Virus record (IMG/VR): IMGVR_UViG_3300025168_000103 | Span: 1-56,292 of that record | Direction: 5' to 3' (one strand) | Origin: a virus | Length of the DNA stretch: 56,292 bases | Part shown: one piece after another, positions 1,369 to 35,116 of the stretch | How the letters are laid out: every line of letters begins with the position of its first letter | How positions within the stretch are numbered: position 1 is the stretch's first letter | Program-made: the position numbers and the translations under genes | Notes under the pieces: model-generated | Seen by the model: the letters and a program-made list of their open reading frames with translations, nothing else | Told to the model about the DNA's origin: nothing | Database searches by the model: none

Positions 1369-1369
1369 T

Positions 1370-15509: not shown

Positions 15510-18500
15510 TTATCTAATTATAGGTGTTTCTTTTTCAGAACTGCCACCATATAAACTTTTTCTTATTTCTTTATTGGTTTGACCAAATGGAGCTATTTCA
15601 TATTGTAGTTCTTTTTCCCATAAAGGAGTTCCTTCTTCTGCTAGATAAGAATCTTTACTTTGTGTTTCTCCACTAACAGCGTAGTTTACAGTATTACCTA
15701 TATTTTCAGCGGTTCCAAAAGAAGACGGTATAATTGTATAATTTTTAAATCTGTTGTAATCTGTCATAACATTTATATCCTTACTTAACTTTTTTAAGTT
15801 TCTTAAAACCATATCATCTTCTCCGTCATCTTCTAATATTAATATTAATAAAGTAACTATACCAGCTAAACTAATACCTCTTATATAAGCTCCCATTTCT
15901 TTTTGTTGGTCTTCACTTAGTTTGTCATATTGTTCTTTAAATGACTTCATAGATATTTCTCCGTTTATCATTTGTCCCCACAGTCCTTGTACATATTTTC
16001 CTGCAGTTGTATAACTACCAACTTGTACTTCTCCAAACCTATCTATATCTCTTTGTTGGAATCTATCTCCAACTAAAGTTATGTACCATTTTTTAAATTG
16101 TAAAGCAGCTCTACCTAAAGCGTATGTTCCCAGCATTCTAGAGTCTAAAGCGGTGTACCCTTCTCCGTGTAGTGTAGATATTTTATGATTTATTTGTCGT
16201 ACACGTTCTTGTGATATTTCACCAGACTTATACTCTTGTTCTGTTAACATACCTAAGAAAGCTGCTCCTTGTATATAATTTTCAGATTTATCCATAAAAA
16301 TAAATGAAGCTCTTTCTATTTTACCAAAAGCTCCTTTTTTATTATCAAGATGTATAAAATCACTAAAGCTATATTCTACAATTCTGTGTTTCTTTAATAA
16401 GTCTTGTGAATAGTTCCAGTCTTGGAAATACCTTTTTTCTCCTAAAACCATTTGCTTACCACCTCTTTTACGCAACTCTTGATACTTACCAGCTAAAACA
16501 TTACCTATAGCTACTAAAGGATTAAAACCTAAAAGCCTTAATGTAGTTAGTCTTACTAACCAATCCATAATTTTTTCTGCTGAATTTAGTTTACGTTCTT
16601 TCTTTTCTAAAAACGATTCTTTCCACCATCTAGTTAGATATTCAGCTGCGTTTTGATTACCGTTTTCTTTATTAAACTGTATTATAGAATCAACTAATAC
16701 AGACATATTTTTCATACCTACAAAAGGATTGTCTTGCATATTAATAGCATTACCATAGTTATCTCTTATAACGTCTCCATGTTTAAATAGAGTACCTCTA
16801 ACAAACTCTAACAAAGCTCCATTTAAATCCATAGACATATGTTCAAACTCTGTTAATTGTCTTCTTTTGTATTCTTCTATTAAAGCTTTATCTGCTTCTG
16901 TTAGTTTACCAGGAGGAACTCCTTCTGCCATTTTTGCAATAGCATCACCATCATTTAATAAAGCGTCTATCTCTGCATCTGTTAATGTTATCTTACTTCC
17001 ATCTTCATGTGTTCCTTTTTTCTTAAGATTTGTTGCTTTACGTTTTAGTTTCTCTAATAATGTAACACCAGCAATTCTTTCTTTTGCTGTACCAGCACTT
17101 TTTAAATAAGTTCTTATACTACTTAAAGGCATTAACACTTCTGTTCCATTTACGTCAAAATATAACTTAACATTTTCTACATTCATATTCTTACCCATTC
17201 TCATATCATATAATCCAAAAAGTCCTTCTTTTGAGAACATTTCTAAATCTCCCATTTGTATATTTTTTACTTTGTCTCCTCTCTCCTGTCTAATAATACC
17301 TCCAAACTTTTCGTTTATTTGTTGGTATAAATTCCAGTAATCATATTCTTCTTTACTTAAAGAATCTCTTTTTCTATTTATTTCCTCTCTAGACAACATT
17401 ATCACTTTACCTTCTTTGGTTCTTTGTGTAATATTGCCATAAAGTTTTTCATATCTTTCAGACATATTAAGTTTACCTTTTATTCTTTCAGATATACCTA
17501 TACCTTTCATTTTAGATTCTATTAGCTTGTCGTGTACACTATTAATTTCATTAACATACATTCTGTTTCTATCTATATAGTTGTAATAGTTTTTCTCTAT
17601 TTCATTTATCATGTATTGTATCTCAGGTCTTTTAGATGTCATATTGTTTGAACCCATCCATTTTCTTAACCAAGATATGTCATCATTTTTAGAAGGAGTT
17701 TTAAAATCATAGTTTTGTAAGTCTGCTTTTTCTTGTAAAAACTTAGTCTGTTTTTCAAAAGCTCTTTGTGCTATTTCAGTTCTAATTAAATGTTTCGCTC
17801 TATTTGTAGCTGAGCTATCTAATTTATCTAACTTAGTCATAGCGTCATATAAATACTCGTCAGTATGTTTTTGTAATTGCTCTTTAGTAAGCTTTTCGTC
17901 TGTTAAGTCTTCTGCTATATTATAATCTACTACATACATTCTGTATCTTTCTTTCAATCTAGAATATATTAAACTATCTTTTGTAATAGACTCTACAGTT
18001 ATTCCTTTGTCTTCTAACCATTCGTTAAACGACAACATATCATTGCTGTCCATATATTCCTTACCCTCACTATTATATCTGTCAAAAGCTTTCTTAGCTC
18101 TTGTAACTTCTGTAGCGGAAGAAACATTCTTTATTTTGTATATGTATATAGGAGACTCTCCTTTAATAAATGATTTGTGATATTTATTACCATTTTCTTT
18201 AATGTCCGCATAATTATCATACCCTTCACTTTGAGCCCATTTATCTAAATTACTAATTTCATCTATACTATTTCTTTTTATAGGTGGACTTATTACTACA
18301 AGAGTGTTTCCTGGTTTTATTAATTTAGTTATATCAGAATTAGTTTCGTTATAAGTACTGTAACCATGACTTATTGTTTTCTTATTTCCTAGAATTATAG
18401 CTTGTTCTTCTAATGTTTCTAGCGTCATGTTACCTTGTATATCCTGTTTTTGTTCTTTAGCTTGTTCTGCTCTTTGTTCTAGCTGTTTGTTTATATCATC

Positions 18501-21500
18501 TTCTCTTTTAGCTTCTTCTGTTAATTTAGATTCTATTGTTTCAATAATTCCTAAAGGTTTTAAATTAGAAGACGATGGTTCTTTCATAGAGTCTATAGTT
18601 TTTTCCATATACCCATTTATCTTTTTTATAAACTTATCAGAAAATAAAGGTGTAAGAGAATCTTCTTTAAATCCAAAGTCAAAAAACTTATACTCTATAT
18701 TAAACATTATAGTTTGTTCTCTTTCTGTTAATTCATTAAAGTCTTTTTTAATTTCATTAATTTCAGACTCTGTAATAAACTCATTTAATAGTTGTCTGTT
18801 TAACACAACAATCTCACGTCCCTTACTGTTTTTAACTATCTTAATAGCTTTAATAAACTTGTTGTCTGGTTTAGATTTAATTATATCTTTTAATCCATTT
18901 ATTAAACCACTCTTAGTAGATGTAGGATAAATAATACCTTCCATATTTTCTACCATTTTATCAGATATTAATTTATTTATAATCTTATTTTTTTGGTCTT
19001 TAGTTTTATATAGTAATCCTTTCTTATCGTTATAAGCCTCTTCCATTATAGATTGCATATAAGGAGTGTATCTTATATCTGTTACAGAAGCTCTCTCTAA
19101 CATACTGTCAAATAATTCTAAAGCATGTGTTAGAATAGGATTTTCAAATAAACCTCCCATATTTCTTTTAGGGTCATTCTTAACATCTTCAATCTTTTTA
19201 ACTACACCTCTTAACTCTAAAGGATTTTTTTCAATAGATTGATGCACTGTAAACGCCTTACCTATAGGTTGAGCTACGTCTTTATTAAATTGTTCTAAAT
19301 TATATACAAGTCTTAAGTCTTTTATTTCATTATCTGACATTGAGCTACTACCATAAGTGTCTTTTAACCATTTTTTAAAGTCTGAACTCTTTTTACCAGG
19401 TTTCTTTTTTGTACCTAACAGTTGCTCTATTGTAGCAGAAGAAGAAACAAATCTTTTACCATCTGTTGTTTTTTGCCATTCAAAATACTTTTGTACAATA
19501 TCAGATGTATATATATCTTTAACTTCTTGTAAAGAATACCCCAACCTTCTTAACATTACAAACCCTGCTACAGACTGTTCGTTTAATCCTAATCTATCTG
19601 CATATTGATGTTTAGCATTATCTAATACTATATTTAATAACTGAGCTAATCCAAACCAGTTTCCTACTCCGTCCTCAGCGTTTCTATCATCATAAAACTT
19701 ATCTACTTTTCTTCCGTTAATATCTACTTCAAAACCTAACTCTACACCACTAACAGAAAATATATTTAAACTTCTTTGTAAAGCAGCTACAATACCTACA
19801 AGCATTTTAGTAGGTACATTTTCTTTAAATGTTTTTGAGTCTCCTATAGGAGTTAATTGTGATTCTACTGTAGGTCTTTCTTTTCCAATTACACTCTCTA
19901 CGTCTGATACAAAATCTATGTTTGCTGTAATTTCTTTTCTTACATCTTCTCTACTAACTAAATCTACATATAAATCAAAAAATTCATTACTATCATTTCT
20001 CCAATCATCAGTTGATTTTATTTCATCTTTGTTATATTTAAAATTCATGTGAACTGAATCACCATCTAAGTCAGCTCCCCAGTACGCAGAAACTTCTGCT
20101 GGTATAGTTATCTTAGATGTAGGACTTCCTTTTAATTGTCCGTGAAATCCTTTTACTATAAATACACTTGTACTTACCTTACCGTGTGAAGGTATTCTAG
20201 TTCCTAAAAACAAATTCCCTTCTTTAACTCCTTGTTTTTGTAAATAACCAGGTACAAATGCTTCTGAAACTACAACTTTTTTACCATCAATAGTCATTTC
20301 TTCAAAAGCTTTCAAACCCATACCTAATGAAGATGACTGATAAGCGATACTTCCCTTTGTATACATCTTAGTACCCTTCTTAGCTACCCTACCATTAGCT
20401 ATAGAGTTATATACAGAATTTATTGCAGGATACCTTCCATCTATATTACCAAACATAGAAGCAATTAACTGTCCAAATACTGCTGGGTCAACAGAATCTT
20501 TGAAATTATCCATTTCATTAAACACATCTTTTGTTGTTGCCTCGGAAGATGTAATCATTCCTTCATCAAGATTTCTCTCTTTGTTAGATTTCTCCATTAC
20601 ATTTTTACGAAGTTCTAACATTCTATTAAGAGTCTCCATGTCTTTAGGAGAGTTCATGTTGTTAGCTAGATTATAAAATAATTGCGAAGGAAAGTATCTT
20701 TCTTCTTTTTGTTTATCTAACTCTAATTGTATTCCTAAACCTTTACCATCTAAACCTTTAAATTCTCTGTTAGAGTCATATCTATCTCCTTTTATAAACA
20801 ACTCATCTTGTTTGTCCATAATAAGGTCCATGTTCTTATACTCTTCTTGTAAAGATTGTTCTTCTGTAACACCATCATGTATACTACTAATTTCACTCAA
20901 GTTCCTTACATCGTATATATACTGACTTCCCTTTTCTCCGTTAATACCATCAAACCATAATTTAGCAGATGACTCAGAAGCCGCTATAACTAAGTGTCCA
21001 TGACTAAATGTATTGTCTTTTGACTCTGTGAAGTATAAAGAGTCTCTTACATCATATGTAGGTATTACTGCGTCTGCTATACGTCTATTTCTTTCCCTTA
21101 ATACATTAGCTATATTTTTATGTATCTTACTTGTATTTTCCATGTCTGGAGTCAAGACTTGTACAGCAAACTTTAAATATACGGTATTGCCATCTTCTTG
21201 TCTATAATTATATACAAACTTATATACACCTCCTACATCTTTAACTCCTCCATACTTTTCTGTAATTATTTTAGCTTGCTGTGGTAATATGTATCCTGCT
21301 GCATCATTTTCTATCCAAGCTTCTACTCCTTCAGGTATTTCGTTTTCTGTATATATATTACCTTCTTTATCTACATAATAATCTTTTGTAATAACAGGTT
21401 CAAATGTTGTGTTATGGTCATACGTAGTGTGAGAAGCAATACTTCCAGCTAATCTTTTAATATAATCTACCTCATCTTTAGCTTGTTTATGGTCGTATCC

Positions 21501-24500
21501 TAATAGTTGTTGAGCCATAAATTTATTAGCTATATAACTAGTTAAAAAGTTTTTAATTTGTTCTTCTGTTCTGTTTTGCCAAGATTTATTATTGTCATAC
21601 AAGTCAGGGTTTTTTCTTAATTCTAACATAAACTTATTGTACTCCTCGTCTATCTGTTTGATTTGATAATTACCTTTTTTATCTTTTACAATAGTATAAG
21701 GAAACACGTCACCACCTTTTATATACTTGTCTTTTAATGCTGGATTATTATATAGCGTTTCTAAAACTTTATTTCTACTAGCTACATCTGTTATAGCTAT
21801 AGACTTAACATAATATCTTCTACTCTTATCAGAGAATGTACCAATAGCTTGGTCGTATAAAACAGACTCTCCGTCTTTTTGTTTTTGTACTGTATTTAAA
21901 AAATGATACAAATCAATAGCCATCATTTCAGATGGGTCTATTTCTGTCATAGATTTAGCTCCATTGTCCCATCTCTCTATGGTTTGTTGTCCTGGAGTAT
22001 ATCTATACATACCAGCATGAACACTTATGTCAAATGGATTGTCTAGTATCTCTCCAGTTCTCCCATCAAATAATATATTCTTTTCCATTTTTTCTTGTAT
22101 CATTTTAGAATATATATTATTCTTAGGATTGAATATACTTTTCTTTCTTTTATCTATACCTAATATTTGTTCTACCGAATCATAAGCTTGATTATGTAAT
22201 GCGTTATTATTATTAAATATACTAATACCGTCACCTGTTACGTTGTCTACAATAGACAAATAGTTCATGGGTCTAGACAATACCATAACTTCTCTTAAAA
22301 CTTGTTTAAATGATTGTAAATTATTTTTAGTATAATCATAAGCTTGCGCTTGTTCATTTACTTTAGTAGTCCACTTTTCTGTTTTTTTGTTAAACAACAT
22401 CCATCTACCATGCTTTAGATTAATTCCTTGTAATCCTACTTGTGATTCAAAAAACACATCTGTTAAAAACATTGGTTTGTTGTTCCATATAATTGTTTCG
22501 TTTAATACAGCGTCTATATCTATTCTTTCAAAACCATCTGTATCTTTAAATAAAGTTTCTAATATAGCTACTGTACCTTGGTGCTTAGAAGATTCACTAT
22601 AGTTGTCTTCTGCAACTTTGTTGTATATATTTTCTAAACTAGACATTTTTTGTTTCTGTTTAGCTTTAGATAAATTAGACCAACTGTCTATCATTCTAGT
22701 AATAACACTTTGTTCTGTTGTTCTACTTAATAGCGTGTTATCTTTCCATTCATATTGTCCTTCTTTTATAAGTAACATATCTCCTTGTAATCTTTCAATT
22801 ACCATACTCTGGAATATATTAGATATTTGTAACAACTTAGCATCTGTATAGTTTTCGTTTTCAAATACTTTGTTATCTAATATAGAAAGCATTTGTTGTA
22901 TTTCAACAGAGTTACTTTCTCTTACCATCATTATAAAATCTTCTGGATTCTTTTTTACCTTTTTAGCAAGATTATATAATTGGTACATTAATTTCTTTCT
23001 TTCAAAAGGAGACTCTGTTTGTTTTACATTGTATATTTCTGCAACTGCCTTAAAAAAGTTAGTAAGAGTTTTAGGCATATTCATGTTCTTTAACTCGTCA
23101 TTATGCTGGTCAGCTAAATTTAAATCTGTTTCATCGTTAAGTTCTTGTTCCTCAAATTGTATTGTAAGTTGTTTCCCTTTTTCAGAATCAAGACCTATAC
23201 CTTTTTCTTTAAGTATTGCTTCTATTAACAATTTATCACTACCAGCTAAATTCTTTTTATACTTAGGATTAGTTGTATATAAAACAGCTCTTATATATTG
23301 TTTTAACTGGTCTTTTTGTTTTTTCTTTAATGACTTAGAATTAATTAGTCCAGACTTGTCTATTCTTTTAATTACATTATCTGCTATTTGTTCGTCTGTT
23401 AATCCCTTGCCTAACTCATAATTTAAAAATGTGTGAACTAACGAATATTCTGTAGCTTTTCTAAATGAAGCTTTTTTAGCTCTGTTAATTCCTGCGTATC
23501 CTGAATTTTGTATATCACCCTTTTTACCAAAGTTTAATAGTATGTGTTTCATTGCAGCCTCTAACGTAAGGGTAGGTACTACATCGTCTACTAAGTTTAA
23601 AAATTCCCTAGCTTCTTCGTCTGTAGCAAGTTTTTTAGTTTCTTTATAAAACTTAATTAAATCCTCTTCTAGTTGTTTTTGTACTTTACTATCCTTAATT
23701 ATAGAGTTTAAACTACCATACGTATTAGCTTCTAATGTTCTTACAAAAGACTCTTCTAGTATGTGTGTCTGTTCTAAATTAGATAGTTTTTTAGCTATAG
23801 CTCCACCTCTTCTTTTTGTAGTAAGTTGTGTTATAAGAGATGCGTATAGTTCTGCTGTTTTAGTATCATCTACACCTTCGTTCTTTACAATGTTTGTTAT
23901 AATGTCCTTAATATCACTTTTAACTTCATTACTATTATTCATGATACCTTTCTGTAACTCTACAAATGTACCTACTGTCATAACAGTTCCTCCTACATCA
24001 ATTAACGTTAGTTCAGGATATTGTATGGATGTTAAATCAAATATATCTGATTCAACTAATAATTTATTTACTCTTTTAATTAATGGAGATTCAGCTTGCA
24101 TTCTATACCAAACGTGTCCTGATTCGTGTATAATATCTGTTCCTACAGTTCCTCCTTCTGTAATTAACAGTGTACTACCTATTGCTAATGACACAGCTTG
24201 ATTACCAAAAGAGTCTAATAACTTTCCACTTACAATATAAGCTTGGTCTGCAGGTACCAATCCTTTTTTTATAAGCCTTTGTAACATAATATATTCACCA
24301 AGACCTGCGTTTGTATATACCTCATGGTTTCTTCTGGGTACAGCTCCGTCATATTTTTCAAATGTATTATCTTTAGAAGGTTTTGTTTCTTCTTGTGATA
24401 CTTTAGATTTTACTTTTTCATAAATAGATTTTATTTTATCTTTAGTCTCTTTTATCTTTTCTTTAACCGTAGTAGATTTTTTTGCTCTTGTAATGTTTTC

Positions 24501-27419
24501 GTCTTTAACATCATAGTCTCTATATTCAATAGTTCCTATTACTTGACCGTCAACTTCAGCAACCATTTTATATTGGTATAAATCATTACCAAATTGAAAA
24601 AATAATTGACCGTCTATATTAACAACATTTTCTTGACCGTCTTTAGGTAAAACTAGTTTTATTTTTACGTCTACTGTATCTTGTGATATATACTTAGCTA
24701 AAAATGTATCTACAGTTTGGTTACCTACCTTACCTTCTCTATTGTAAAATTTAATTTTACTACCCTTGCTGTCTGTTATTGTATAACTATTACCTGATTT
24801 AGTAGGAACTATAGAAGAAGCTTTTACTATAATTTCACCACCTTTTTCAGCTATAGCTTTAGCTAATTTTTTAACTTTATCTAGTATTGGAATTTTTTTA
24901 CGAACCTTTTCTGATTTAGGTTCTTCAGGTAATTTTACTTCTTTTTTTTCAGTTACCGCTTTTTTTTTACTTTCTCCCTGTTTGTTTGCCCACTCCGTGT
25001 ATGACTCTGTAATAGTTCCGTTTTGTTTACCCTTCAAATATTCTTCTGCTTTTTTATAGGTCTCTACAGATACACCAGCCATACCTTTCATCTTCTTTTT
25101 TAACTCAGTAAAAGCTCTTCTTATTTGTTGTGAAGTTTTTGACTTTTTTAATATTCTTTCAGCTCTATCTACAGCGTCAACTACATTTTTTGCGACTAAT
25201 TTTTTTGCGCTTTCTGAAACTTCTTTTGGTGTTTTACCTCTTAAGCCTTGTACTGTCTCTACACCTTTTTTAGCTACCCCTCTTACAGTGTCTGCACCTT
25301 TCTGAGCTACTCCTTTAACAGCGTCAAAAGCTCTACTTAAAAACCCCTTACCTTCTTGTTTTTTCTTAGACTCTCTGTATTCTTCTATAGACATACCAGA
25401 TTCTTTAGCTTCCCTAGCTGTCATTCTTTTTTCACCCTTCTGTGTAAATTTTTCCGTTTCCTCAGAAGTTAATCTCTTTTTATATCTTTTGTCTGCTTTC
25501 CCTTCTTTAGTTAAGACTTCTTCTTTTTGTAAATAGAAATTTTCTATCTCGTTTTTAAGTTTCTTTTCTTCTGCTTTTAATACTTCTAAAACAGCCTTTT
25601 CTTCCATCTTAATATCATTCAGCTTTTGTTTCTGATTTTCAGTAGAAACATTTTCTTTAACTTTTTTTCTTTGTTCGTTAAATATAGACTTAACTTGTTC
25701 TTGTTGTGAATTGTTTCTAGTTAATCTATTTTCTCTATAAAAAACTTGTTTAGCTCCAGCTTCTGTTAATGTAGTGTTTACAGAATGTTTATTATAGTTT
25801 TCAGTCATTCTGTCTATAGTCTGAAATATATTATCTCTTCCTTCTTCTGTTAGTTTTCCGTCTTGCACTTGTTGCTCTATTACAGATTTCATTTTACTAG
25901 CATCTCCCTCGTAATTCCATATATGGTCTGCTACTAACTCGTCAGATAAGTTTTGGAAGTCTCTCATAGATTCTTCTGAATAGCTTCCGTCTTCTGCTAA
26001 TAATCTTAATCTTTCAGTTTTCTCTATTTTTTCATCTAACATTTTTTGTCTTTCAGCAGCTCCATCTACCACACCTCTTACTCCCCCCATAGCTCCTCCT
26101 AAACCTACAGAAGTCCAAAATATGTCTCTAGCTTCTTTAGTAAAATTACCATCCGCATCTTTTATATAATCTGTATATGAATCATAACCCTTACCTTGTA
26201 CATCATTTAAGTTAGCGTATTTAATCCATTCTTGATATGTTTCTTGAACTCCTTCAGAAAATCCCTCTACTCCTGCATAAACACCAACTGTAGGTAAATT
26301 TATAAGACCTCTTTGTACTAAGGGTTTTATAACTCCACCGACACTAGCGCTAAAAGCCATTGGTTTTGGAGTTAGTCTAGCCACTCTATTTATGTTCATA
26401 GTTTTACCTAGCCCTCCAAATAATATTCCATATTGAATAATGTCTACCGCTGCCCATTTAGAGTTGTCCCAAACAACTCCACTTGCAGCACTTGCAGCTT
26501 GTTCTTTTGTTAGTCCTTCCTTAATACCCTGATTATATGTTTCACCTCCTAAATATACACCTTCAAATGTATTGGCAGCGAGACCACCTCCTATCATTTG
26601 TGAAGCATTTCTCGCTCCTTTTGTAACTATAATACCAGCTTTACCCGCATCAATAGCTAAATGTTGAGCTAGTCCAGAGCCTCCAACTCTATTTGTACCA
26701 TACAATAACTTTGAAACCTTTTCCCCTCCAGATGTAGTAGAAACTACCCTACTCATTTTTCCAACTTTTCCACTTTGAGCTAATCCTTTCATAGCCCAAC
26801 TTCCAAATCTACCACCTATCATCGCTCCTCCACCATAAGGAATCATAAACGAAGCAGCGTATGGAATTAATCTAGCAACTTTAGAAGACCACATTTCTGC
26901 TTTAAACATGTCTTGCCATGTAACATCTTGTAAGTCTTCTGATATAATTAATAAATTTTCATTTTGCAAATCTGTTCCTTTTTTCTTTAACCAATCCCCT
27001 ACAGCTGTGTTTGGTTCGGGGTCATTAGGAGATATAACAGCTGACACATAATCTATAGCATCTCCTGTACCGTACACTAAATCTCCCCAACCCGCTCTTA
27101 TAGCTCTACCTGCGTCTGATGTAAATCCTCCTATAACTGCATCTGGGTCTACCATAGAAACACTACCTGAAGCGTCTTCTTGTATAGGCTGCATAAATCC
27201 ACCCATTTCGTTTTGCAACATATTTCCTGCCGCTCTACTCTCGTAGTATTTGTCTATATTTTCTTGTTGCTGTACTTGTTCTTGCGAAGGTCCTAATAAA
27301 CTATTAAAAACATCTGTACTACTTTTTCCATCATAACTTTCAATAGCTTCGTCTGGTGTAGAAATTAAATTAGTTTCTTGTTCTGCTGGTAAATCATACC
27401 CTGTAATATTATCTGCCAT
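15510..27419 (-). CDS. Giant virion RNA polymerase fusion protein (crAss-like vRNAP)
   Basis: This 3969-residue protein holds a multisubunit-type RNA polymerase active site in one chain. AYWGADLDGDSVHMN places the metal-binding aspartates at D2450, D2452 and D2454 (DxDGD). It follows RIPSHG (R2408) and KITIPAEVSA, the order seen in bacterial beta-prime (R.PTLH ... NADFDGD). A Lys-rich KKGTKMYTKG at 2347-2356 may match the beta-subunit lysine motif. In crAss-like phages such an enzyme is packaged and injected to transcribe early genes. Upstream are glycine-rich hydrophobic stretches (about 180-470) like ejection proteins, Lys/Glu-rich coiled regions (about 540-1050) and an HExxH motif at 1098-1102. 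The last 700 residues are helical, with a hydrophobic span near 3840. It is the last gene of the cargo unit. Confidence 0.85.
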   Translation of the reverse strand: MADNITGYDLPAEQETNLISTPDEAIESYDGKSSTDVFNSLLGPSQEQVQQQENIDKYYESRAAGNMLQNEMGGFMQPIQEDASGSVSMVDPDAVIGGFTSDAGRAIRAGWGDLVYGTGDAIDYVSAVISPNDPEPNTAVGDWLKKKGTDLQNENLLIISEDLQDVTWQDMFKAEMWSSKVARLIPYAASFMIPYGGGAMIGGRFGSWAMKGLAQSGKVGKMSRVVSTTSGGEKVSKLLYGTNRVGGSGLAQHLAIDAGKAGIIVTKGARNASQMIGGGLAANTFEGVYLGGETYNQGIKEGLTKEQAASAASGVVWDNSKWAAVDIIQYGILFGGLGKTMNINRVARLTPKPMAFSASVGGVIKPLVQRGLINLPTVGVYAGVEGFSEGVQETYQEWIKYANLNDVQGKGYDSYTDYIKDADGNFTKEARDIFWTSVGLGGAMGGVRGVVDGAAERQKMLDEKIEKTERLRLLAEDGSYSEESMRDFQNLSDELVADHIWNYEGDASKMKSVIEQQVQDGKLTEEGRDNIFQTIDRMTENYNKHSVNTTLTEAGAKQVFYRENRLTRNNSQQEQVKSIFNEQRKKVKENVSTENQKQKLNDIKMEEKAVLEVLKAEEKKLKNEIENFYLQKEEVLTKEGKADKRYKKRLTSEETEKFTQKGEKRMTAREAKESGMSIEEYRESKKKQEGKGFLSRAFDAVKGVAQKGADTVRGVAKKGVETVQGLRGKTPKEVSESAKKLVAKNVVDAVDRAERILKKSKTSQQIRRAFTELKKKMKGMAGVSVETYKKAEEYLKGKQNGTITESYTEWANKQGESKKKAVTEKKEVKLPEEPKSEKVRKKIPILDKVKKLAKAIAEKGGEIIVKASSIVPTKSGNSYTITDSKGSKIKFYNREGKVGNQTVDTFLAKYISQDTVDVKIKLVLPKDGQENVVNIDGQLFFQFGNDLYQYKMVAEVDGQVIGTIEYRDYDVKDENITRAKKSTTVKEKIKETKDKIKSIYEKVKSKVSQEETKPSKDNTFEKYDGAVPRRNHEVYTNAGLGEYIMLQRLIKKGLVPADQAYIVSGKLLDSFGNQAVSLAIGSTLLITEGGTVGTDIIHESGHVWYRMQAESPLIKRVNKLLVESDIFDLTSIQYPELTLIDVGGTVMTVGTFVELQKGIMNNSNEVKSDIKDIITNIVKNEGVDDTKTAELYASLITQLTTKRRGGAIAKKLSNLEQTHILEESFVRTLEANTYGSLNSIIKDSKVQKQLEEDLIKFYKETKKLATDEEAREFLNLVDDVVPTLTLEAAMKHILLNFGKKGDIQNSGYAGINRAKKASFRKATEYSLVHTFLNYELGKGLTDEQIADNVIKRIDKSGLINSKSLKKKQKDQLKQYIRAVLYTTNPKYKKNLAGSDKLLIEAILKEKGIGLDSEKGKQLTIQFEEQELNDETDLNLADQHNDELKNMNMPKTLTNFFKAVAEIYNVKQTESPFERKKLMYQLYNLAKKVKKNPEDFIMMVRESNSVEIQQMLSILDNKVFENENYTDAKLLQISNIFQSMVIERLQGDMLLIKEGQYEWKDNTLLSRTTEQSVITRMIDSWSNLSKAKQKQKMSSLENIYNKVAEDNYSESSKHQGTVAILETLFKDTDGFERIDIDAVLNETIIWNNKPMFLTDVFFESQVGLQGINLKHGRWMLFNKKTEKWTTKVNEQAQAYDYTKNNLQSFKQVLREVMVLSRPMNYLSIVDNVTGDGISIFNNNNALHNQAYDSVEQILGIDKRKKSIFNPKNNIYSKMIQEKMEKNILFDGRTGEILDNPFDISVHAGMYRYTPGQQTIERWDNGAKSMTEIDPSEMMAIDLYHFLNTVQKQKDGESVLYDQAIGTFSDKSRRYYVKSIAITDVASRNKVLETLYNNPALKDKYIKGGDVFPYTIVKDKKGNYQIKQIDEEYNKFMLELRKNPDLYDNNKSWQNRTEEQIKNFLTSYIANKFMAQQLLGYDHKQAKDEVDYIKRLAGSIASHTTYDHNTTFEPVITKDYYVDKEGNIYTENEIPEGVEAWIENDAAGYILPQQAKIITEKYGGVKDVGGVYKFVYNYRQEDGNTVYLKFAVQVLTPDMENTSKIHKNIANVLRERNRRIADAVIPTYDVRDSLYFTESKDNTFSHGHLVIAASESSAKLWFDGINGEKGSQYIYDVRNLSEISSIHDGVTEEQSLQEEYKNMDLIMDKQDELFIKGDRYDSNREFKGLDGKGLGIQLELDKQKEERYFPSQLFYNLANNMNSPKDMETLNRMLELRKNVMEKSNKERNLDEGMITSSEATTKDVFNEMDNFKDSVDPAVFGQLIASMFGNIDGRYPAINSVYNSIANGRVAKKGTKMYTKGSIAYQSSSLGMGLKAFEEMTIDGKKVVVSEAFVPGYLQKQGVKEGNLFLGTRIPSHGKVSTSVFIVKGFHGQLKGSPTSKITIPAEVSAYWGADLDGDSVHMNFKYNKDEIKSTDDWRNDSNEFFDLYVDLVSREDVRKEITANIDFVSDVESVIGKERPTVESQLTPIGDSKTFKENVPTKMLVGIVAALQRSLNIFSVSGVELGFEVDINGRKVDKFYDDRNAEDGVGNWFGLAQLLNIVLDNAKHQYADRLGLNEQSVAGFVMLRRLGYSLQEVKDIYTSDIVQKYFEWQKTTDGKRFVSSSATIEQLLGTKKKPGKKSSDFKKWLKDTYGSSSMSDNEIKDLRLVYNLEQFNKDVAQPIGKAFTVHQSIEKNPLELRGVVKKIEDVKNDPKRNMGGLFENPILTHALELFDSMLERASVTDIRYTPYMQSIMEEAYNDKKGLLYKTKDQKNKIINKLISDKMVENMEGIIYPTSTKSGLINGLKDIIKSKPDNKFIKAIKIVKNSKGREIVVLNRQLLNEFITESEINEIKKDFNELTEREQTIMFNIEYKFFDFGFKEDSLTPLFSDKFIKKINGYMEKTIDSMKEPSSSNLKPLGIIETIESKLTEEAKREDDINKQLEQRAEQAKEQKQDIQGNMTLETLEEQAIILGNKKTISHGYSTYNETNSDITKLIKPGNTLVVISPPIKRNSIDEISNLDKWAQSEGYDNYADIKENGNKYHKSFIKGESPIYIYKIKNVSSATEVTRAKKAFDRYNSEGKEYMDSNDMLSFNEWLEDKGITVESITKDSLIYSRLKERYRMYVVDYNIAEDLTDEKLTKEQLQKHTDEYLYDAMTKLDKLDSSATNRAKHLIRTEIAQRAFEKQTKFLQEKADLQNYDFKTPSKNDDISWLRKWMGSNNMTSKRPEIQYMINEIEKNYYNYIDRNRMYVNEINSVHDKLIESKMKGIGISERIKGKLNMSERYEKLYGNITQRTKEGKVIMLSREEINRKRDSLSKEEYDYWNLYQQINEKFGGIIRQERGDKVKNIQMGDLEMFSKEGLFGLYDMRMGKNMNVENVKLYFDVNGTEVLMPLSSIRTYLKSAGTAKERIAGVTLLEKLKRKATNLKKKGTHEDGSKITLTDAEIDALLNDGDAIAKMAEGVPPGKLTEADKALIEEYKRRQLTEFEHMSMDLNGALLEFVRGTLFKHGDVIRDNYGNAINMQDNPFVGMKNMSVLVDSIIQFNKENGNQNAAEYLTRWWKESFLEKKERKLNSAEKIMDWLVRLTTLRLLGFNPLVAIGNVLAGKYQELRKRGGKQMVLGEKRYFQDWNYSQDLLKKHRIVEYSFSDFIHLDNKKGAFGKIERASFIFMDKSENYIQGAAFLGMLTEQEYKSGEISQERVRQINHKISTLHGEGYTALDSRMLGTYALGRAALQFKKWYITLVGDRFQQRDIDRFGEVQVGSYTTAGKYVQGLWGQMINGEISMKSFKEQYDKLSEDQQKEMGAYIRGISLAGIVTLLILILEDDGEDDMVLRNLKKLSKDINVMTDYNRFKNYTIIPSSFGTAENIGNTVNYAVSGETQSKDSYLAEEGTPLWEKELQYEIAPFGQTNKEIRKSLYGGSSEKETPIIR

Positions 27420-27420
27420 G

Positions 27421-29580
27421 TTATTTCTTTAATGTAAAATATTTAGACCACTTTTTGTTTGTTTGTTGGAATTTTTTAAAAGTTTCTTTATCTGTATTTT
27501 TAGAATACCAGTTCATAAATCCTTTTGGTCCTTGTTTTAAAGCTTCTTGTAGTGTTTTGTCTTTACTAATTAATGAGCTTAATCCAGACGTAGCTTGTTC
27601 AAATAATTTATTAGTTTGTTGCATATCTCCTTCTGAAGCTTTTTCTGATTCTGTTAATAGCCAGCTCATTATCATTGGTGATGTTAAGTGTCCATTTTCT
27701 GCACTTACTCCACCTACAACCAAACTAGTTTCTATATTAGACTTATATGAAGTTGCTACTTGTGGTAAAATTTCTGTATTACCCTCTGTGTATATATTTG
27801 CTAAATCTAATTCTAATCTATCTTTTTGTTTTTCATAATAAGCAGCGTTTGACTTTTTAGTTTCATATGAATTTTTTTCATTAATAACCTTACTTAAACT
27901 TTCGCTGTCTGTCATTTCATCCATTTGTTGTCTAAAAGAAACATTGTTTAAATCTACAACATCATAAAAAGCGTCATCCGCACTAAAGGTATCACTATCT
28001 ATTAATTCGTTTATCATAACTACCTCTACAGGTCTATCACCCATATTGTCTCTTATTTTTTGTAAATCGTTTTTATTTGTATTCCTAGTAATTAACATTG
28101 ATGTAGGTTGTCCTGTTTGCGGGTCTACTCCTGAAACTCTGAATCCTAAATAAGTACCATTGTATTTTAGGTCCATAGCCTCTTCTTCTCCATAAGGATT
28201 AAATCCTAGAGCTCCAAGTCCAAATCCTCCAACAGCACTAATCCCCGCTACTACTGGAGCCGCTACACCTGTTGTAACCAATCCTGCACCAAACCCTACT
28301 GTTCCTGTTGTACCTCCAACTTCTAATCCTCTTTCCCACCATGTTCCAGTTATATCATCATCTGTTACTAATACTCCGTTTTCATTGTACAATCCTTTTG
28401 ATTGCATATTATTTATTGTTCCATTTTCAGAAAAATAAGAGTCACCATACTGAGCTGTCAAAACTGCTGTTTGTATGTTTTTGTCTGTTAATATTTGTCC
28501 AGATGTATTCATTTGGTCTCCAGAACCCATCCATTTTTCATAACCTCTTGACTCTGTGTCATAACCACCTATTCCTGCCCATAATTCTGTGTATGATGTA
28601 TTGTTATTTTCAGGGTCTAAACTTTCTAATAATTGTTGGAACCCACTTATTGAACCAGTACCATGCTCTTGTTCCATATCTAAAACATCATTTACTGTAA
28701 ACCCATCTATAGAACCCTTATAATTTTGTAAAAGTTCTGGAACAGCGTCTAAGTTTTTTTCAAACTGTAAAACATAACTCGTTTCTATTGCTTTTGTACC
28801 ATACACCTCTTGGTCTTCTTCCCATCTTAAATTTTTTCTAGTCCATACTTCTACCGCTTGTTGGTTTTCTTGTAAAGTATTTCTGTCTATACCAGTATCT
28901 CTTGACATATCATTTAGTATCGCTACCTCGTTTTTAGCATAAAAATCTTCATAACTTATTTCTTGACCATTGTCAGTGTCTTCCATCATAGTAGATAAAT
29001 CCCAATCTCCTCTCATTCCCACATAATCAAATTCGTCTGTTTCTCCGTTTATAAAAGCGGTGTATCTTTCATGGTCTCCAGACATAATTAACTTTTGTGT
29101 TTCTGGGTTTTGTGCAGCTGCTGTAAAGTTAGTTAAATTAGCTTTATTATTTGTAACTCTTCTCAATATTGGATTTCCCTTAGTAGGGTCATCGTCTGGA
29201 TTATTTATATTCATCTTATATTGATTTATATAATAATCTAAATTACCATACAATCTAGCTTGTGTATAGTCTCCGTTATATTGTTGTATTATATTTTTTA
29301 TATCTCCCCATCCAGAATGTTCTGCATGCCACTTCTTCATATCGTCAACATCTTTTTGTCTACCAAAAGATGAATTTAATATTTGTGTAGCTGTATCTTC
29401 CGCCTGTTGTATTTGTTGTTGTATAGCGTTTTGTTGATTTATTCTTTGTGTTTGTTGTTGTTGCAACATTTGCATATATTGCAATTCTTTCAAAGATTCA
29501 GAATCTCTTTGACTTTTTCTGTCCTGTGCAGATTTATAACCTGTGCTCAGCGTAGACCAAAATCCATAATCTATTGCCAT
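27421..29580 (-). CDS. Cargo/ejection protein, 719 residues
   Basis: This protein starts with a Gln-rich helix (LQQQQTQRINQQNAIQQQIQQ) and is mostly polar and acidic, but contains one glycine/valine-rich hydrophobic stretch (GTTGTVGFGAGLVTTGVAAPVVAGISAVGG, about residues 430-460) that could enter a membrane. The C terminus is Lys-rich. This mix, and its place directly upstream of the giant polymerase with a one-base gap, match internal cargo proteins of crAss-like virions that are ejected with the genome and line a channel through the envelope. No enzyme motif was found. Confidence 0.55.
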   Translation of the reverse strand: MAIDYGFWSTLSTGYKSAQDRKSQRDSESLKELQYMQMLQQQQTQRINQQNAIQQQIQQAEDTATQILNSSFGRQKDVDDMKKWHAEHSGWGDIKNIIQQYNGDYTQARLYGNLDYYINQYKMNINNPDDDPTKGNPILRRVTNNKANLTNFTAAAQNPETQKLIMSGDHERYTAFINGETDEFDYVGMRGDWDLSTMMEDTDNGQEISYEDFYAKNEVAILNDMSRDTGIDRNTLQENQQAVEVWTRKNLRWEEDQEVYGTKAIETSYVLQFEKNLDAVPELLQNYKGSIDGFTVNDVLDMEQEHGTGSISGFQQLLESLDPENNNTSYTELWAGIGGYDTESRGYEKWMGSGDQMNTSGQILTDKNIQTAVLTAQYGDSYFSENGTINNMQSKGLYNENGVLVTDDDITGTWWERGLEVGGTTGTVGFGAGLVTTGVAAPVVAGISAVGGFGLGALGFNPYGEEEAMDLKYNGTYLGFRVSGVDPQTGQPTSMLITRNTNKNDLQKIRDNMGDRPVEVVMINELIDSDTFSADDAFYDVVDLNNVSFRQQMDEMTDSESLSKVINEKNSYETKKSNAAYYEKQKDRLELDLANIYTEGNTEILPQVATSYKSNIETSLVVGGVSAENGHLTSPMIMSWLLTESEKASEGDMQQTNKLFEQATSGLSSLISKDKTLQEALKQGPKGFMNWYSKNTDKETFKKFQQTNKKWSKYFTLKK

Positions 29581-32500
29581 TATTCTTCGTTTTCGTTTAA
29601 GTTAGTATTATCTTCATATTTAGAAGATATATTATATCCTCCCTGTGTATTTGCTAGTCCATTTTTAATTTGGTCTAATAATGAATTAGACCCTCTCATA
29701 CTTTGTAAAGCATTAGCAAATGTAAGTCCAGCAAATTCAGAAGCTGCTTTCTTGTTTGCTAATTGCATTTGTAAGTTCTCAGTTCTTTTAGATTCTTGTT
29801 GCTCGGAGTCAAAGTTTTCTTTAAATACAAGTAATTCGGAATATTGTTTTTGATTTTCTCTTTGTAAAGCTGCGTCTTGAGCAGATACTTCTAATAAAGC
29901 AGATGTTCTTTGAGCGTCAAATATACCTGAAGAAGCTAAATATTTTGCTCTATCTCCTGCTGTACCTCTAATACTATTCTCTAATCCTTGTTGATAAGCT
30001 TTGTCTATACCTCTTCTAATTTTTAATTCTTCTGATGGATGATACCCTCTTTTAGACAGCTCTTTTGTTTCTCTTAAGTGTTCTTGAAACATAGGGCTTA
30101 ATTTAGCTTGTTCCATAGGTGTAACATCTTTCATTGCAGCGGCTAAAGCTTTCTTACCCATAACAGCGTTTATTAAAGCGTCAGGACCTCCAAATGAATC
30201 CATAATACCATTAGCTACGTCCATCGTACCTTTTAACAACTCTTGAGCAGTAGGACCCATACTTCTCGGTTCCTCAACTGACTCTAATTCTGTGTCAAAT
30301 TCAAATGCTTCTGGATTGTATGATATTATTTGGTCTAAATCATTTTCTAAATTAGATATATCATAGTCTTCCGACTTTATCTCATCAAATTTAGCAATTT
30401 GTTCTGGACTTAAATTTATATCTGGATTAGCTCCAGTTTCAAATATTTTCTTTTTTCTATTTGCTATAAACAAATCAACTTCATCTGTACCTCCCCTATA
30501 ACGACCAGCTATTCCGTCAGGATGTCCTTTTGTTTTGTCAAAGATATAATCATTTGATAAAATATCTCTACTATGAAAGTTATTTGCTTTATAATTTTTT
30601 AACGTAATTTTTTCTTCTGGTAAAATAGTTCCATTTGTTTCTTTTTTTTCTAGTCTTTCTATTTCTTCTTCGTTTTCACTAAAACTATTTACCCAGTCTT
30701 TTAAAACATATTTACTTGTACCGTCTTTTGGATTTTCAACTAAAACATATTTATTGTTTGCAGACATATCGGTATCTGTAACCCCTGAATTTGCTACGTC
30801 CTGATTTGCTAAATCTATTATTTGTACATTTACCTTGCCTTCTTTTTCTATTAATTTTTTATCTTCTTCAAGAGCTTTTAACTTATTTATATCTTCATTT
30901 GTTGAGTTAGTCATATATAGAAGTTTATCATACTCTGAATCAAACTCTGGTAACTCGCTCTTTTGTGTTGATATGTTTATTTTTTCTAATGTCGATAGTA
31001 TTTTTTCTTTTTCTTTTTCTGTACCTTCAAAACTTCCATCTACAATTGACTTTCTTTGTGATTCTAATTTATTTATAACCGCACCTCTTTGGTCGTTATA
31101 AAACATAGAGATTTGCTGATTGTCATTATTTTCTACAGCTTCTCTAAAGGTATTAATGTCAAATACATCATCTTTATTTCCATATTCTTTTTTTAACTCT
31201 AAATACTCTAAAGCTAAATTTGTAGTTTTTATGTCTTTATCTATTTGAAATTTTTCTTCTTCTGAATCAGAAGCTTCTAAAGCGTCTTCTTTATTTTTTA
31301 AATCCTTTTTTAATTCATTTCTAAGAGCTTTCTCAGAATTAGGTGTACTAAATATTACGTTTTCGTCTTCAACTTGTACATTTGTTAATCTCCCTAAACC
31401 TTTTTCTTCGTTCTCATCTTTTTCTTTTTCTATCCTAGTATATTTTTGCTCGTCTGTTTCTCTTGTTCCGTATAACCTAAAATTTTCTTCTCTTTCTGCT
31501 TCTAATTCTTCAGATTCTATTTCTTTATCTCTTTCTTGTTGTTCTAATTCAACATTAGTAACATCTCCCTTACCAGATTCTTTATTAGCATCTTTTTCTG
31601 CTTGTTCTACTTTATTTGATTCATATAATTCATTAAGGTCGTTGTTTCCGTAACTATACATTAAGTTAGTAAGTTCAGTTTGTTCTTCTGCTGTAATTGT
31701 ATTGTTATTTTTTTTCTCTTCTAACTCGTTAAACCTAGCAGTATCACTTTCTCTTTTTGTTCTTTCTTCATTTGTTTCTAGTACTCCTGTAGCTTCTTTA
31801 TTTACTTGTCTTTGATTTTCTAACGCTACCTCTTCTTTTTCGTACATTGGTTCATACACCTCTTCATAATACCCATCTATTTCACTATATTTTTCAATAG
31901 GTACCCCTTCATATTTTGCTGCTATTTCTGGATTTTCTGCAAATATCTCATCTATATATTCTTTATTTTTTTCTAACTCTTCTATTTCTTCTTCCCTCCA
32001 TTCTTGGTCGAGTAGTTCTTGTTCATCCAATTCTTCTACTTCATCCACATCTTCTACTTCGTCTACTTCTACTTCGTCTACTTCTACTGCTTCTTCTACT
32101 GCATCTTCATTGATATCTCCCTCTAAGTCTTTTTCATCTACTTCTTCCTCTTTCTTTTTCTCATTATACTTTTTTTGTGCTTCTGCAGCTTCTCCCATGT
32201 TAATTCTGTTCCCACTTTTATCTTCTGCATAAATAAACGCATCTTTAATTCCAGCGTCATTCATAGCTTTCTTTATTGATTCTGCGTCTTCTAATGTATT
32301 TGCTCCGTCTTTTCTTTCAGCTGTATAGCTATATATTATCCCTTTATCTAATTCTTTTTTGATTACATATTCACCGCTTTCTTCTATTTTATCAAATACT
32401 GCTTGTGTTTTTTCATTTACATCTCCTTCGACAACTCCTACTTTAACTCTGTAATTTACCCCACCTGTGTTAGATATATTCTCCATCCTAATAGATAATT

Positions 32501-33872
32501 CTAACTTTTCAGCTTGGGCCATTGGAATTCTTGTTGAGCTCAATTCATCATTTTCTGTTTTCTCTGCATAGGTAAACGCGTCTACAAATCCAAAATTTCT
32601 AAGTTCTTTTTGAAGTCTGTCTGCTGCTTCTTTTGTTGTAACTGGCCCATCTTCTACCTTATACATACTGTACCTGTATAAAATTCCTTTGTCAAGTTCT
32701 TTAATTACTGTATATCCTTCATCTTCTCTTAGCCTGTTCAACAGTGATTGTGTTTTTTCATTTAATCTTTCACCTTCCCAAACTCCAACTTGAACCTTAT
32801 ATTCTAATTTAGGTAATGATGTTTCTTTATCTACCACCACCTCTTCTTCAGGAACTATCTCTTCTTCAACTACTACCTCTTCTTCTATTTCTTCTGAATC
32901 GGATTGAATCATATTTAAGTCTCTAGTAATATTACCACCTACAAAATCTTCACTATTTGTCTCTATTTTTTCCAATTCTTCACCTGCATCATTTTTTATG
33001 GAAATAGTATAATTTTTATTAATGTCTATATTTTCTGAGGTATAAGTACCATTCTCATCTGCTGTAACTACTTGTGTATTTCCATCCTGGTCTGTTATAG
33101 TTACTTTAGAATTTGGTATTATATCTCCTGTTTTTGTGTTTGTTACAACTCCACTAATTTTACCTGAAAGAGGTTCTTCGGACACTAATTCTTCTTCTGT
33201 TGATTCATTGTTTAATATTGTTTCGTTGGTATTCACCCACTTTATTTCTTCTGTGACTCCTCCTGTCTTTGGTTGTATACCATTATTATCATTTGTAGTC
33301 ATTGCTGTTAAATCTACATTTTCACCATCTTTAACAGAATTTTGATATTCTTCTGATTTATTATAATCGTTTTTTACATATGTATGTTCGTTCTTCACAA
33401 CTTGTATACCATATTCATAGGCGTCAGTTTCATGTATAGTCACTAATCTACCTTCAGTATGATATGTTGCCTCGTCTTCTGATTCTACAACGTTATCCGC
33501 TGTATCTTCTGTTACAGCTTCAAAATGAAAATGTGGTCCACCATCTGCGTTTCTTTCATCCAATATTCTTATGTTGTGTCTTTTACAAAACGCTAACCCA
33601 TCGTCAGTCATTTTTATCTTACCCATATTAGAATAATCTGACGGGTCAAAGTCTTCTCCAAAAAAGAATTGTAACATAGAAGCGTCATCACTACCCCAAA
33701 CACCTACATCCATAGCGTCAAATGAATGGTGTCTAGAACCTGGTTTACCTCGTTTAGTAGAGGTAATAGTCCATCCTAACTTCATTCCATATAACTCTTG
33801 TACAAAAGCGTTTATTTCGGAACTTAATTCTCCTCCTGAATCATTTCTTCTTCTAATTGTTGGATTTGGCAT
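29580..33872 (-). CDS. M15 peptidase / SPOR-domain ejection protein
   Basis: The first ~125 residues of this 1430-residue protein carry the zinc-peptidase M15 signature SxHxxxxAxD (S46, H48, A53, D55) and a closing HFHFE (H114, H116), as in D,D-carboxypeptidases and phage endolysins. Next is a carboxypeptidase-regulatory-like beta domain (about 236-322). Two SPOR-type repeats follow (about 356-438 and 472-552), each with Y.V.VGV.EG, KELDKGI.Y.Y and a DAF.YAE end; SPOR domains bind peptidoglycan stripped of peptides. A long, very acidic helical region comes after. The protein should be carried in the virion and cut and hold the wall during genome entry. It overlaps both neighbouring cargo genes by one base. 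Confidence 0.75.
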   Translation of the reverse strand: MPNPTIRRRNDSGGELSSEINAFVQELYGMKLGWTITSTKRGKPGSRHHSFDAMDVGVWGSDDASMLQFFFGEDFDPSDYSNMGKIKMTDDGLAFCKRHNIRILDERNADGGPHFHFEAVTEDTADNVVESEDEATYHTEGRLVTIHETDAYEYGIQVVKNEHTYVKNDYNKSEEYQNSVKDGENVDLTAMTTNDNNGIQPKTGGVTEEIKWVNTNETILNNESTEEELVSEEPLSGKISGVVTNTKTGDIIPNSKVTITDQDGNTQVVTADENGTYTSENIDINKNYTISIKNDAGEELEKIETNSEDFVGGNITRDLNMIQSDSEEIEEEVVVEEEIVPEEEVVVDKETSLPKLEYKVQVGVWEGERLNEKTQSLLNRLREDEGYTVIKELDKGILYRYSMYKVEDGPVTTKEAADRLQKELRNFGFVDAFTYAEKTENDELSSTRIPMAQAEKLELSIRMENISNTGGVNYRVKVGVVEGDVNEKTQAVFDKIEESGEYVIKKELDKGIIYSYTAERKDGANTLEDAESIKKAMNDAGIKDAFIYAEDKSGNRINMGEAAEAQKKYNEKKKEEEVDEKDLEGDINEDAVEEAVEVDEVEVDEVEDVDEVEELDEQELLDQEWREEEIEELEKNKEYIDEIFAENPEIAAKYEGVPIEKYSEIDGYYEEVYEPMYEKEEVALENQRQVNKEATGVLETNEERTKRESDTARFNELEEKKNNNTITAEEQTELTNLMYSYGNNDLNELYESNKVEQAEKDANKESGKGDVTNVELEQQERDKEIESEELEAEREENFRLYGTRETDEQKYTRIEKEKDENEEKGLGRLTNVQVEDENVIFSTPNSEKALRNELKKDLKNKEDALEASDSEEEKFQIDKDIKTTNLALEYLELKKEYGNKDDVFDINTFREAVENNDNQQISMFYNDQRGAVINKLESQRKSIVDGSFEGTEKEKEKILSTLEKINISTQKSELPEFDSEYDKLLYMTNSTNEDINKLKALEEDKKLIEKEGKVNVQIIDLANQDVANSGVTDTDMSANNKYVLVENPKDGTSKYVLKDWVNSFSENEEEIERLEKKETNGTILPEEKITLKNYKANNFHSRDILSNDYIFDKTKGHPDGIAGRYRGGTDEVDLFIANRKKKIFETGANPDINLSPEQIAKFDEIKSEDYDISNLENDLDQIISYNPEAFEFDTELESVEEPRSMGPTAQELLKGTMDVANGIMDSFGGPDALINAVMGKKALAAAMKDVTPMEQAKLSPMFQEHLRETKELSKRGYHPSEELKIRRGIDKAYQQGLENSIRGTAGDRAKYLASSGIFDAQRTSALLEVSAQDAALQRENQKQYSELLVFKENFDSEQQESKRTENLQMQLANKKAASEFAGLTFANALQSMRGSNSLLDQIKNGLANTQGGYNISSKYEDNTNLNENEE

Positions 33873-35116
33873 TATGAATACATATTATTAGATTTCCACT
33901 TCTTTATATTTTTTTCTGCTACCATAGCAATTTGTTTATCTGACATAGTAGATTTAAACTGGTCAGAAGCGTGGTCATATATACCAGCTCCATCTCCTAC
34001 CTTAAAAGGTAACGCACCTCCACCTGCGTATATACTTCCATCTGAAGTTACAGGCATTGGATTATTTTGATGTGTTTCAGGACCAGGAGTTATTCTACCT
34101 CCTCTCATTGCTTCTCTTATGGGTTTTGCAGCTTTAGAGTAATTTTTTTCAGCAATACCTTCTTCTACAGTATTTTGATTATTTACAATCAATTCATTGC
34201 CTGTAAACTCTGCTGTTACATTTTTTAAATTAACCCCTCCTGAGTTGTAATTATATTTCATCCCACTTGCTCCCATTGTGTTTTGATTTGATAAAGCTCC
34301 TCCATAAATAGTATTTCCTTTTGCTTTTCTAGATAAATCTGACATTAAATTTCTTTTTTTTCTTTCTTCTATCATGTTTTGGGAATACAAATTTTTTGTT
34401 TCTTGCTTTATCTCTTGTTCTTGTCTTTTTAGTTTTTTAGATTTTTTACTTCTAAATAAATATCCTAAAGCAGCTGCAGCGATAGGTACCCACGGAGCTG
34501 CTACTCCCGCCATCCCCATTACTGTTTTTGCAGCCATATAATCTCCTACCCCCATACCTACAGCCTCTGGAGTTTTATATGTATACGGATTGTTGTCATT
34601 TGCTATTGTGTAAGCCGCAGCTGCTATCGCTCCACTTCCCGCTGCGGACATTCCAGTGGCAGCTGGATTTGGTATTGTTGCTGGAGCTGCCCCCATAACT
34701 CCTTCTGCTCCTGCTACCCCTTTTACTCCTGCCACGTGTCCCACATCTCCTACTGGAAAATTTGGTATTGTTGCTGGAGGAAGCGCTGTCATTCCTTGAG
34801 GAAGCCCTTTATCAATAACTTTTTGACCTATTTTACCTATGGGGCTTGATAATTTATCAACCGCTGTACTAGCTGTTGATATATTACTCATTCCTGATGT
34901 TACCTTTTGTTCTATAGATGGAGATTCGTAATACTCAGAGGGAATGTATCCTTCTGGAGCGTCTTGTAAAGCTTCTCCTTGAGCTTGATTATATAAATCT
35001 CCCGCATCTTGATAAGTATATGCTGAAGAACTGTAAGGATTAGTAGGATTAAATTCTGATAAATCAGCTCTCCTTCTGTCCTGTAATTGATTCATTAAGT
35101 CTAAGTAATTTGCCAT
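33872..35116 (-). CDS. Cargo/internal virion protein, 414 residues
   Basis: This protein has a polar N terminus, then Ala/Gly/Pro-rich hydrophobic stretches (about residues 130-215, ending AAWVPIAAAALGYLF-like) and a Lys-rich basic patch. The second half contains AEFTGNELIVNN and a GG-rich segment, a pattern I associate with internal proteins of Bacteroidota phages. It ends with a helical basic tail (KNIKKWKSNN). It overlaps the muzzle-type gene and the peptidase gene by one base each, so the four are translated together. A role in crossing the host envelope as ejected cargo is inferred from composition and position. Confidence 0.55.
   Translation of the reverse strand: MANYLDLMNQLQDRRRADLSEFNPTNPYSSSAYTYQDAGDLYNQAQGEALQDAPEGYIPSEYYESPSIEQKVTSGMSNISTASTAVDKLSSPIGKIGQKVIDKGLPQGMTALPPATIPNFPVGDVGHVAGVKGVAGAEGVMGAAPATIPNPAATGMSAAGSGAIAAAAYTIANDNNPYTYKTPEAVGMGVGDYMAAKTVMGMAGVAAPWVPIAAAALGYLFRSKKSKKLKRQEQEIKQETKNLYSQNMIEERKKRNLMSDLSRKAKGNTIYGGALSNQNTMGASGMKYNYNSGGVNLKNVTAEFTGNELIVNNQNTVEEGIAEKNYSKAAKPIREAMRGGRITPGPETHQNNPMPVTSDGSIYAGGGALPFKVGDGAGIYDHASDQFKSTMSDKQIAMVAEKNIKKWKSNNMYS

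Follow-up and report, generated by a model that had tools for sequence, protein, structure and literature searches.

A very divergent relative of the crAss-phage virion RNA polymerases in a 3969-residue fused protein

A single gene at positions 15510..27419 (minus strand) of a 56,292-bp virus contig, a complete IMG/VR record that was analysed at its full length and is here called the window, encodes a 3969-residue protein that contains a very divergent relative of the RNA polymerase carried and injected by crAss phages. Judged by the features that we tested, the giant protein belongs to the crAss-type virion RNA polymerases and would work as they do. We hold it to be very probable that its residues ~1826-2745 (19185..21944, minus strand) are a single-chain DNA-dependent RNA polymerase with two barrels, which is of the crAss/phi14:2 gp66 type and predicted to be catalytically active, that this enzyme is fused to cargo-like and gp49-like parts, and that it is packaged, ejected and transcribes the early genes.

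This kind of polymerase is already known, and what is newer is its divergence, its fusion and the separate lineage of ~66-67 kb genomes that carries it. The crAss-type injected polymerases are thereby extended to a lineage whose enzyme is missed by the Pfam and PHROG libraries and by PDB sequence search. Residues that stay invariant at ~13% identity help to tell catalytic positions from lineage-specific ones, and a compact genome with a one-chain architecture would make a simple system for studying how a ~450 kDa polymerase passes a narrow phage tail.

Several crAss-like parts in one chain

The giant open reading frame has 3969 codons and an ATG start, and the plus strand of 15510..27419 is closed by many stops. 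Full-length relatives of 3.8-4.0 thousand residues are encoded by the related contigs L002 and L033 and genomes G002, G004, G007 and G020. From its N-terminus to its C-terminus, the chain consists of a cargo-like region, an HExGH motif, the RNA polymerase core and a gp49-like region. The N-terminal stretch at ~208-394 (26238..26798, minus strand) resembles the part by which the crAss-type polymerase protein of locus L107 is extended at its N-terminus (E 6e-8 over residues ~200-390). The C-terminal stretch at ~3756-3886 (15762..16154, minus strand) resembles crAss001 gp49, an RNA-polymerase-associated virion cargo protein (PMC10172136); a profile of residues 3000-3969 matches gp49 with E 5e-8, and also matches the C-terminal extensions that other crAss polymerase fusions carry. 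An earlier reading, made from the sequence alone, had described both ends of the protein as ejection-like, which agrees in part with these two stretches. That reading had recognised the polymerase, but missed the gp49-like C-terminus and the zinc-protease-like HExxH motif (HESGH, residues 1098-1102; 24114..24128, minus strand). The latter is conserved as HExGH in 13/13 sequences covering the position, and HExxH is also present in crAss001 gp47, in p-crAssphage gp45 and in many crAss polymerase fusions. An AlphaFold2 model of this region, of too low a quality (pLDDT 60) to bear out a zincin fold, had no PDB match.

Because the HExGH motif and the gp49-like C-terminus occur in the same chain as the polymerase, the giant protein is best read, on sequence grounds, as several crAss transcription and cargo proteins joined together. 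One gene appears to hold what is spread over three neighbouring genes, g067-g066-g065, in phi14:2: sequence similarity establishes the fusion for the polymerase and the gp49-like part, and the N-terminus would correspond to g067 by position alone. Fusions of crAss polymerases with further parts are already known in kind (PMC7886860).

It is conceivable, if rather unlikely, that the chain is a polyprotein, which its own HExGH domain or another protease cuts into cargo, polymerase and gp49-like subunits, leaving a working enzyme of fewer than 3969 residues. The homologues of these parts are separate genes in crAss001 and phi14:2, the HExGH motif within the chain is invariant, and the stretch at ~2990-3100 is poorly conserved, all of which speaks for such processing. 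However, fusion into polymerase proteins of 3-4 thousand residues is common at crAss-type loci, proteins of up to ~6000 residues have been reported (PMC10136315), and no cleavage site is known.

The polymerase core

The sequence-only reading had placed a DLDGD motif at residues 2450-2454, behind R.PSH and a short strand, and these positions are exact; the reading frame, for which it had named no strand, is on the minus strand. R-I-P-S-H is found at residues 2408-2412, and the short-strand stretch between it and DLDGD is SKITIPAEVSAYWGADLDGDSVHMNF. Together they form a DPBB-A segment (20022..20207, minus strand) with a predicted metal-binding catalytic loop (DLDGD at 20058-20072). D.DGD alone is expected ~0.07 times in a protein of equal size and composition and was present in 6.5% of 3000 residue shuffles; it is weak evidence, and we judged reasoning from the motif only to be insufficient. 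When R.P[ST] was required no more than 60 residues upstream, 0/3000 shuffles had the pattern. A scan of IMG/VR for WGADLDGD retrieved 28 viral stretches, 27 of which belong to the same giant protein family, and DLDGD is present in 19/19 aligned family sequences, both sets being motif-selected. It is also carried by L002, an 84% relative that was obtained without using the motif. Across 84,980 prokaryote genomes, WGADLDGD had 52 matches, none of which fits the polymerase profiles, and so no host was assigned from that scan.

Searches of the giant protein against Pfam, PHROGs and PDB sequences recognised no polymerase, and a match to DUF5382_N (E 0.005, under the curated cut-off) was put down to chance. 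With tblastn, residues 1500-3000 found crAss RNA polymerase genes among phage genomes, with E values as low as 1e-4 and the alignments falling on the motif region. The best BLASTP match of the giant protein was crAss001 gp50 (26%, E 2e-8), with further matches to p-crAssphage gp44 (E 7e-7) and cr115_1 gp52 (2e-4).

We built a family profile from 19 sequences (residues 1826-2990) that were found by their WGADLDGD stretches, and assembled crAss-type loci with a GxDFDxDKL scan. The latter yielded 115 ORFs, nearly all with an R-I-P ... GSDFD[IV]DKL segment, and 60 crAss-like polymerase cores were used in the profile comparison. The two profiles aligned in hhalign with E 1.5e-29 over 634-820 columns, while reversed and block-shuffled control profiles gave E 0.06-0.2; the two halves of the core, aligned separately to the crAss set, gave 1.5e-13 and 1.7e-18.

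Since both sets had been fished by the motif loop, we compared residues outside the loop. At 9/9 positions outside DxDxD where the crAss set shows 100% conservation, the window family has the same residue, invariant: K1988, R1989, D2039, K2083, K2153, G2356, R2408, P2410 and D2600, whose phi14:2 counterparts are K893, R894, D962, K1027, K1065, G1235, R1322, P1324 and D1612, respectively. K2083 (21171..21173) and K2153 (20961..20963) are presumably the catalytic lysines of the DPBB-B active site, and D2600 (19620..19622) lies in LDNAKHQ, all three on the minus strand. A second lysine within PSQLFYNL, which aligns with the crAss 'GTQxxK', was dropped as a candidate, the K there being Y here; both 100%-conserved lysines lie elsewhere and were kept. 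In comparison with the crAss segment [YF]R-I-P ... GSDFD[IV]DK, the window family keeps the R, the P, the G and the three aspartates, but has changed F to L, I/V to G and K to S throughout. The loop is DLDGDS in the family, as opposed to DFD[IV]DK in most other crAss polymerases examined.

The predicted fold points in the same direction. An AlphaFold2 model of the core reached pLDDT 74 and pTM 0.61, with part of the active-site loop below pLDDT 60. In a Foldseek search of the PDB, the single match at E <= 0.001 was 6vr4_A, the phi14:2 virion RNA polymerase (E 7.9e-14), and RDR2 and QDE-1 ranked after it. VIA aligned 808 residues of the model to residues 632-2007 of 6vr4_A with Z 15.5 and an rmsd of 4.7 Å, compared with Z ~5-6.5 for QDE-1, RDR2 and gp62 of phage P74-26. 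Taking hhalign, Foldseek and VIA together, we regard the core as homologous to residues ~632-1750 of phi14:2 gp66. Among predicted viral structures there were 27 matches at E<=0.001, and the strong ones with organism names are almost all from crAss-group phages, phi14:2 among them. The model thus bears out the similarity to two-barrel polymerases that the sequence-only reading had proposed should be sought by structure prediction, and, with the profile match and the invariant residues, upholds its placing of a crAss-type polymerase within the giant protein. As judged by alignment of the whole model rather than by barrel-by-barrel tracing, the predicted fold has both barrels in one chain, in which the DLDGD metal-binding loop would belong to the C-terminal barrel and K2083 and K2153 to the N-terminal barrel.

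The metal loop DLDGDS is unusual for the group, and the confidence of the model is moderate, which could suggest a polymerase-like domain that has lost its activity and is retained for a structural or ejection role. We consider this improbable, since relatives that are 43-83% identical to the window keep the three aspartates, the two lysines, R-x-P and D2600 without variation, and the loop resembles the DFDGD of cellular enzymes.

The phage, its lineage and its transcription programme

The window encodes, all on the minus strand, a terminase large subunit (51708..53525; phrog_6681, E 8e-96), a portal protein (49412..51706; phrog_6547, E 4e-116), the Crassvirus major capsid protein (46751..48289; Crass_capsid, PF23898, E 2.7e-38), crAss tail ring protein 1 (41123..42220; CrAss_Ring_1, PF24228, E 1.5e-20) and the crAss muzzle protein (35116..41121; crAss_MUZ, PF25731, E 1.3e-130). 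Between the muzzle and polymerase genes lie, on the same strand, those for a 414-residue protein (33872..35116) with weak similarity to crAss001 gp45, cargo protein 1 (E 7e-6 for the best domain and 0.011 for the whole protein, among 12 proteins compared), a 1430-residue protein of the cargo block with a CarboxypepD_reg domain (29580..33872), and a 719-residue protein (27421..29580) that is likely cargo by its position and whose orthologues in relatives are 26% identical. The CarboxypepD_reg protein is strongly variable in length, ranging from 554 to 1430 residues among relatives. The order ring-muzzle-414-1430-719-polymerase recurs with orthologues in G002, G004, G007 and G020, and the wider order terminase-portal-capsid-ring-muzzle-cargo-polymerase agrees with phi14:2 and cr115_1.

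By the sequences of its terminase, portal, capsid and muzzle proteins, the phage belongs with the Crassvirales. The sequence-only reading had called it crAss-like on the strength of DxDGD; the assignment holds, but the motif is a poor marker of it, as most crAss-type polymerases examined read DFD[IV]D. The window terminase has a best identity of ~30% to any record in the phage collection. In a terminase tree, the window and four relatives form a separate clade (support 96/98) outside the sampled Steigviridae, Suoliviridae and Fipvunavirus, a placement that is provisional because some reference rows were shortened by in-frame stops and the tree was made without Intestiviridae and Crevaviridae. 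The ends of G020 (L168-L171) overlap by 130 bp with at least one mismatch, giving a genome of ~67.1 kb, and those of G002 (L176-L179) overlap by 98 bp, giving ~65.8 kb, which suggests complete circular or terminally redundant genomes. Both are small for crAss-like phages, p-crAssphage having 97 kb and the zeta and epsilon groups 145-192 kb (PMC10136315). The chances are about even that these phages make up an undescribed, family-level lineage on the branch of the Crassvirales. Its genomes would be compact, at ~66-67 kb, and circular or terminally redundant, and its whole transcription cargo (cargo-like N-terminus, metalloprotease-like motif, two-barrel polymerase with a DxDGD loop of the cellular type, and gp49-like part) would be one chain of ~4000 residues that takes up ~18% of the genome.

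Small genes make up the early block of G020 (L168:8557-15574, plus strand), and their products include a DnaB helicase, a Rad52-like protein, GP88 and a DUF3799/PDDEXK nuclease. Among the ten larger G020 genes that we scanned, flanking and within this block, none was found to encode a DNA polymerase. On the strand opposite to the virion genes, the window encodes at 505-2188 (plus strand) a radical SAM protein that resembles spore photoproduct lyase (PF20903, 1.8e-25) and, after it, a D12-class adenine methyltransferase (3.8e-19), for both of which there was no match in the four relatives compared. At 11251-13929 (minus strand) it encodes an 892-residue protein with a signal-peptide-like start, LLLLLFVPLLAFSQ, that is ~50% conserved in relatives and has no family match.

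TAnnTTTG is the -7 promoter box of Bacteroidota. In four relatives this box is over-represented before late genes (0/300 shuffles in each) and its reverse complement is not. Before early genes there is a weaker excess (2-20/300 shuffles), the early regions of the four relatives being akin and thus not independent samples. Strand-specific enrichment before late genes was seen in G002, G004, G007, G020 and the window. The enrichment suggests a Bacteroidota host, and boxes upstream of late genes are expected if the host polymerase transcribes these genes. The earlier reading had further implied that the injected enzyme uses promoters of its own; we found no support for this, as a k-mer search of early upstream regions found no phage-specific early promoter, and host-type boxes occur in both early and late blocks. 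In most cases the top enriched early k-mer, AAATAATTA, coincides with the start codon or adjoins a host-type box, and we therefore claim no phage-specific promoter from it.

We infer packaging into the virion and injection because the phi14:2 and crAss001 homologues were found by mass spectrometry, and from the gene order. In a model drawn from these two phages (PMC10172136, PMC10136315), the giant protein would be made late, along with the structural genes, and then packaged as cargo. It would be ejected, partly unfolded, through the portal and the muzzle tail, ahead of or with the DNA, and could then refold in the cell and transcribe the early genes, after which the host polymerase would take over the late genes. 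The distribution of TAnnTTTG is compatible with this proposed early/late division.

Some phages have a second two-barrel polymerase that is not a virion protein, such as P23-45 gp64 (PMC10770324), and the window enzyme might likewise be made after infection to transcribe middle or late genes. There is little to recommend this, since the gene stands in the virion block, right behind those for the muzzle and cargo proteins, and is fused to cargo-like parts, its homologues are virion proteins by mass spectrometry, and -7 boxes of the host type are over-represented before late genes. Another reading would make the giant protein nothing more than a large ejection or 'polyvalent' structural protein in which DLDGD is a chance or unrelated motif. 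In its favour, the motif alone is expected ~0.07 times in such a protein, the Pfam, PHROG and PDB sequence searches were blank, and giant ejection-like proteins without a polymerase do exist. It is nevertheless extremely unlikely, being refuted by the profile match (E 1.5e-29, against controls), by invariant residues beyond the motif and by 6vr4 as best fold match.

Comparison with known systems

One giant ejection-like protein with no detectable polymerase is gp18 of Elemovirus elemoE (L184/L189), whose genome has 60 kb and whose terminase sits on a neighbouring branch of the tree: this structural protein has 3694 residues and an HExxH motif, but as a negative control matched neither polymerase profile. 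QDE-1 and RDR2, the next-best PDB folds, are cellular polymerases of eukaryotic RNAi and match weakly (Z ~5-6.5).

Compared from the literature alone, Thermus phage P23-45 gp96 is similar in that a virion polymerase, with the loop DFDGD, lies inside a giant virion protein with a metallopeptidase domain (PMC10770324). It differs in that this clamp-less polymerase is at the N-terminus, is fused to the tail tape measure protein, and belongs to an unrelated long-tailed phage (PMC10770324). Azobacteroides phage ProJPt-Bp1 likewise has a giant protein in its structural block, PJPA_041 (3481 residues), with a DxDGD loop (DNDGD), but its similarity to our profile is very low and no HExxH was found in it.

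In p-crAssphage (Carjivirus communis), KP06_gp44 also joins a polymerase to an extra C-terminal part, in 4070 residues. Its loop is DFDVD, and the HExxH motif is in the neighbouring gp45, whose annotation names a fusion with a zincin protease, whereas in the window a single chain holds both the HExGH part and the polymerase. The gp50 core of Bacteroides phage crAss001 is the best BLAST match, its gp49 resembles the C-terminus of the giant protein and its gp47 also bears HExxH. All three are virion cargo proteins detected by mass spectrometry (PMC10172136), but are encoded by three genes in a 103-kb genome, and the loop is DFDVD.

The closest structural counterpart is gp66 of Cellulophaga phage phi14:2 (6VR4), with which the window polymerase shares the core fold, the order of motifs, the nine invariant residues and the place of the gene after tail and cargo genes. 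A passage in PMC10136315 describes the phi14:2 polymerase as driving rifampicin-resistant early transcription. The two differ in that they are ~13% identical and that the phi14:2 loop is DFDID rather than DLDGD. Moreover, gp66 has 2180 residues and is flanked by gp65 and gp67 as separate proteins, from the three adjacent, co-oriented genes g067-g066(polymerase)-g065, all of whose products were detected by virion mass spectrometry, whereas in the window a single chain of 3969 residues is found in their place.
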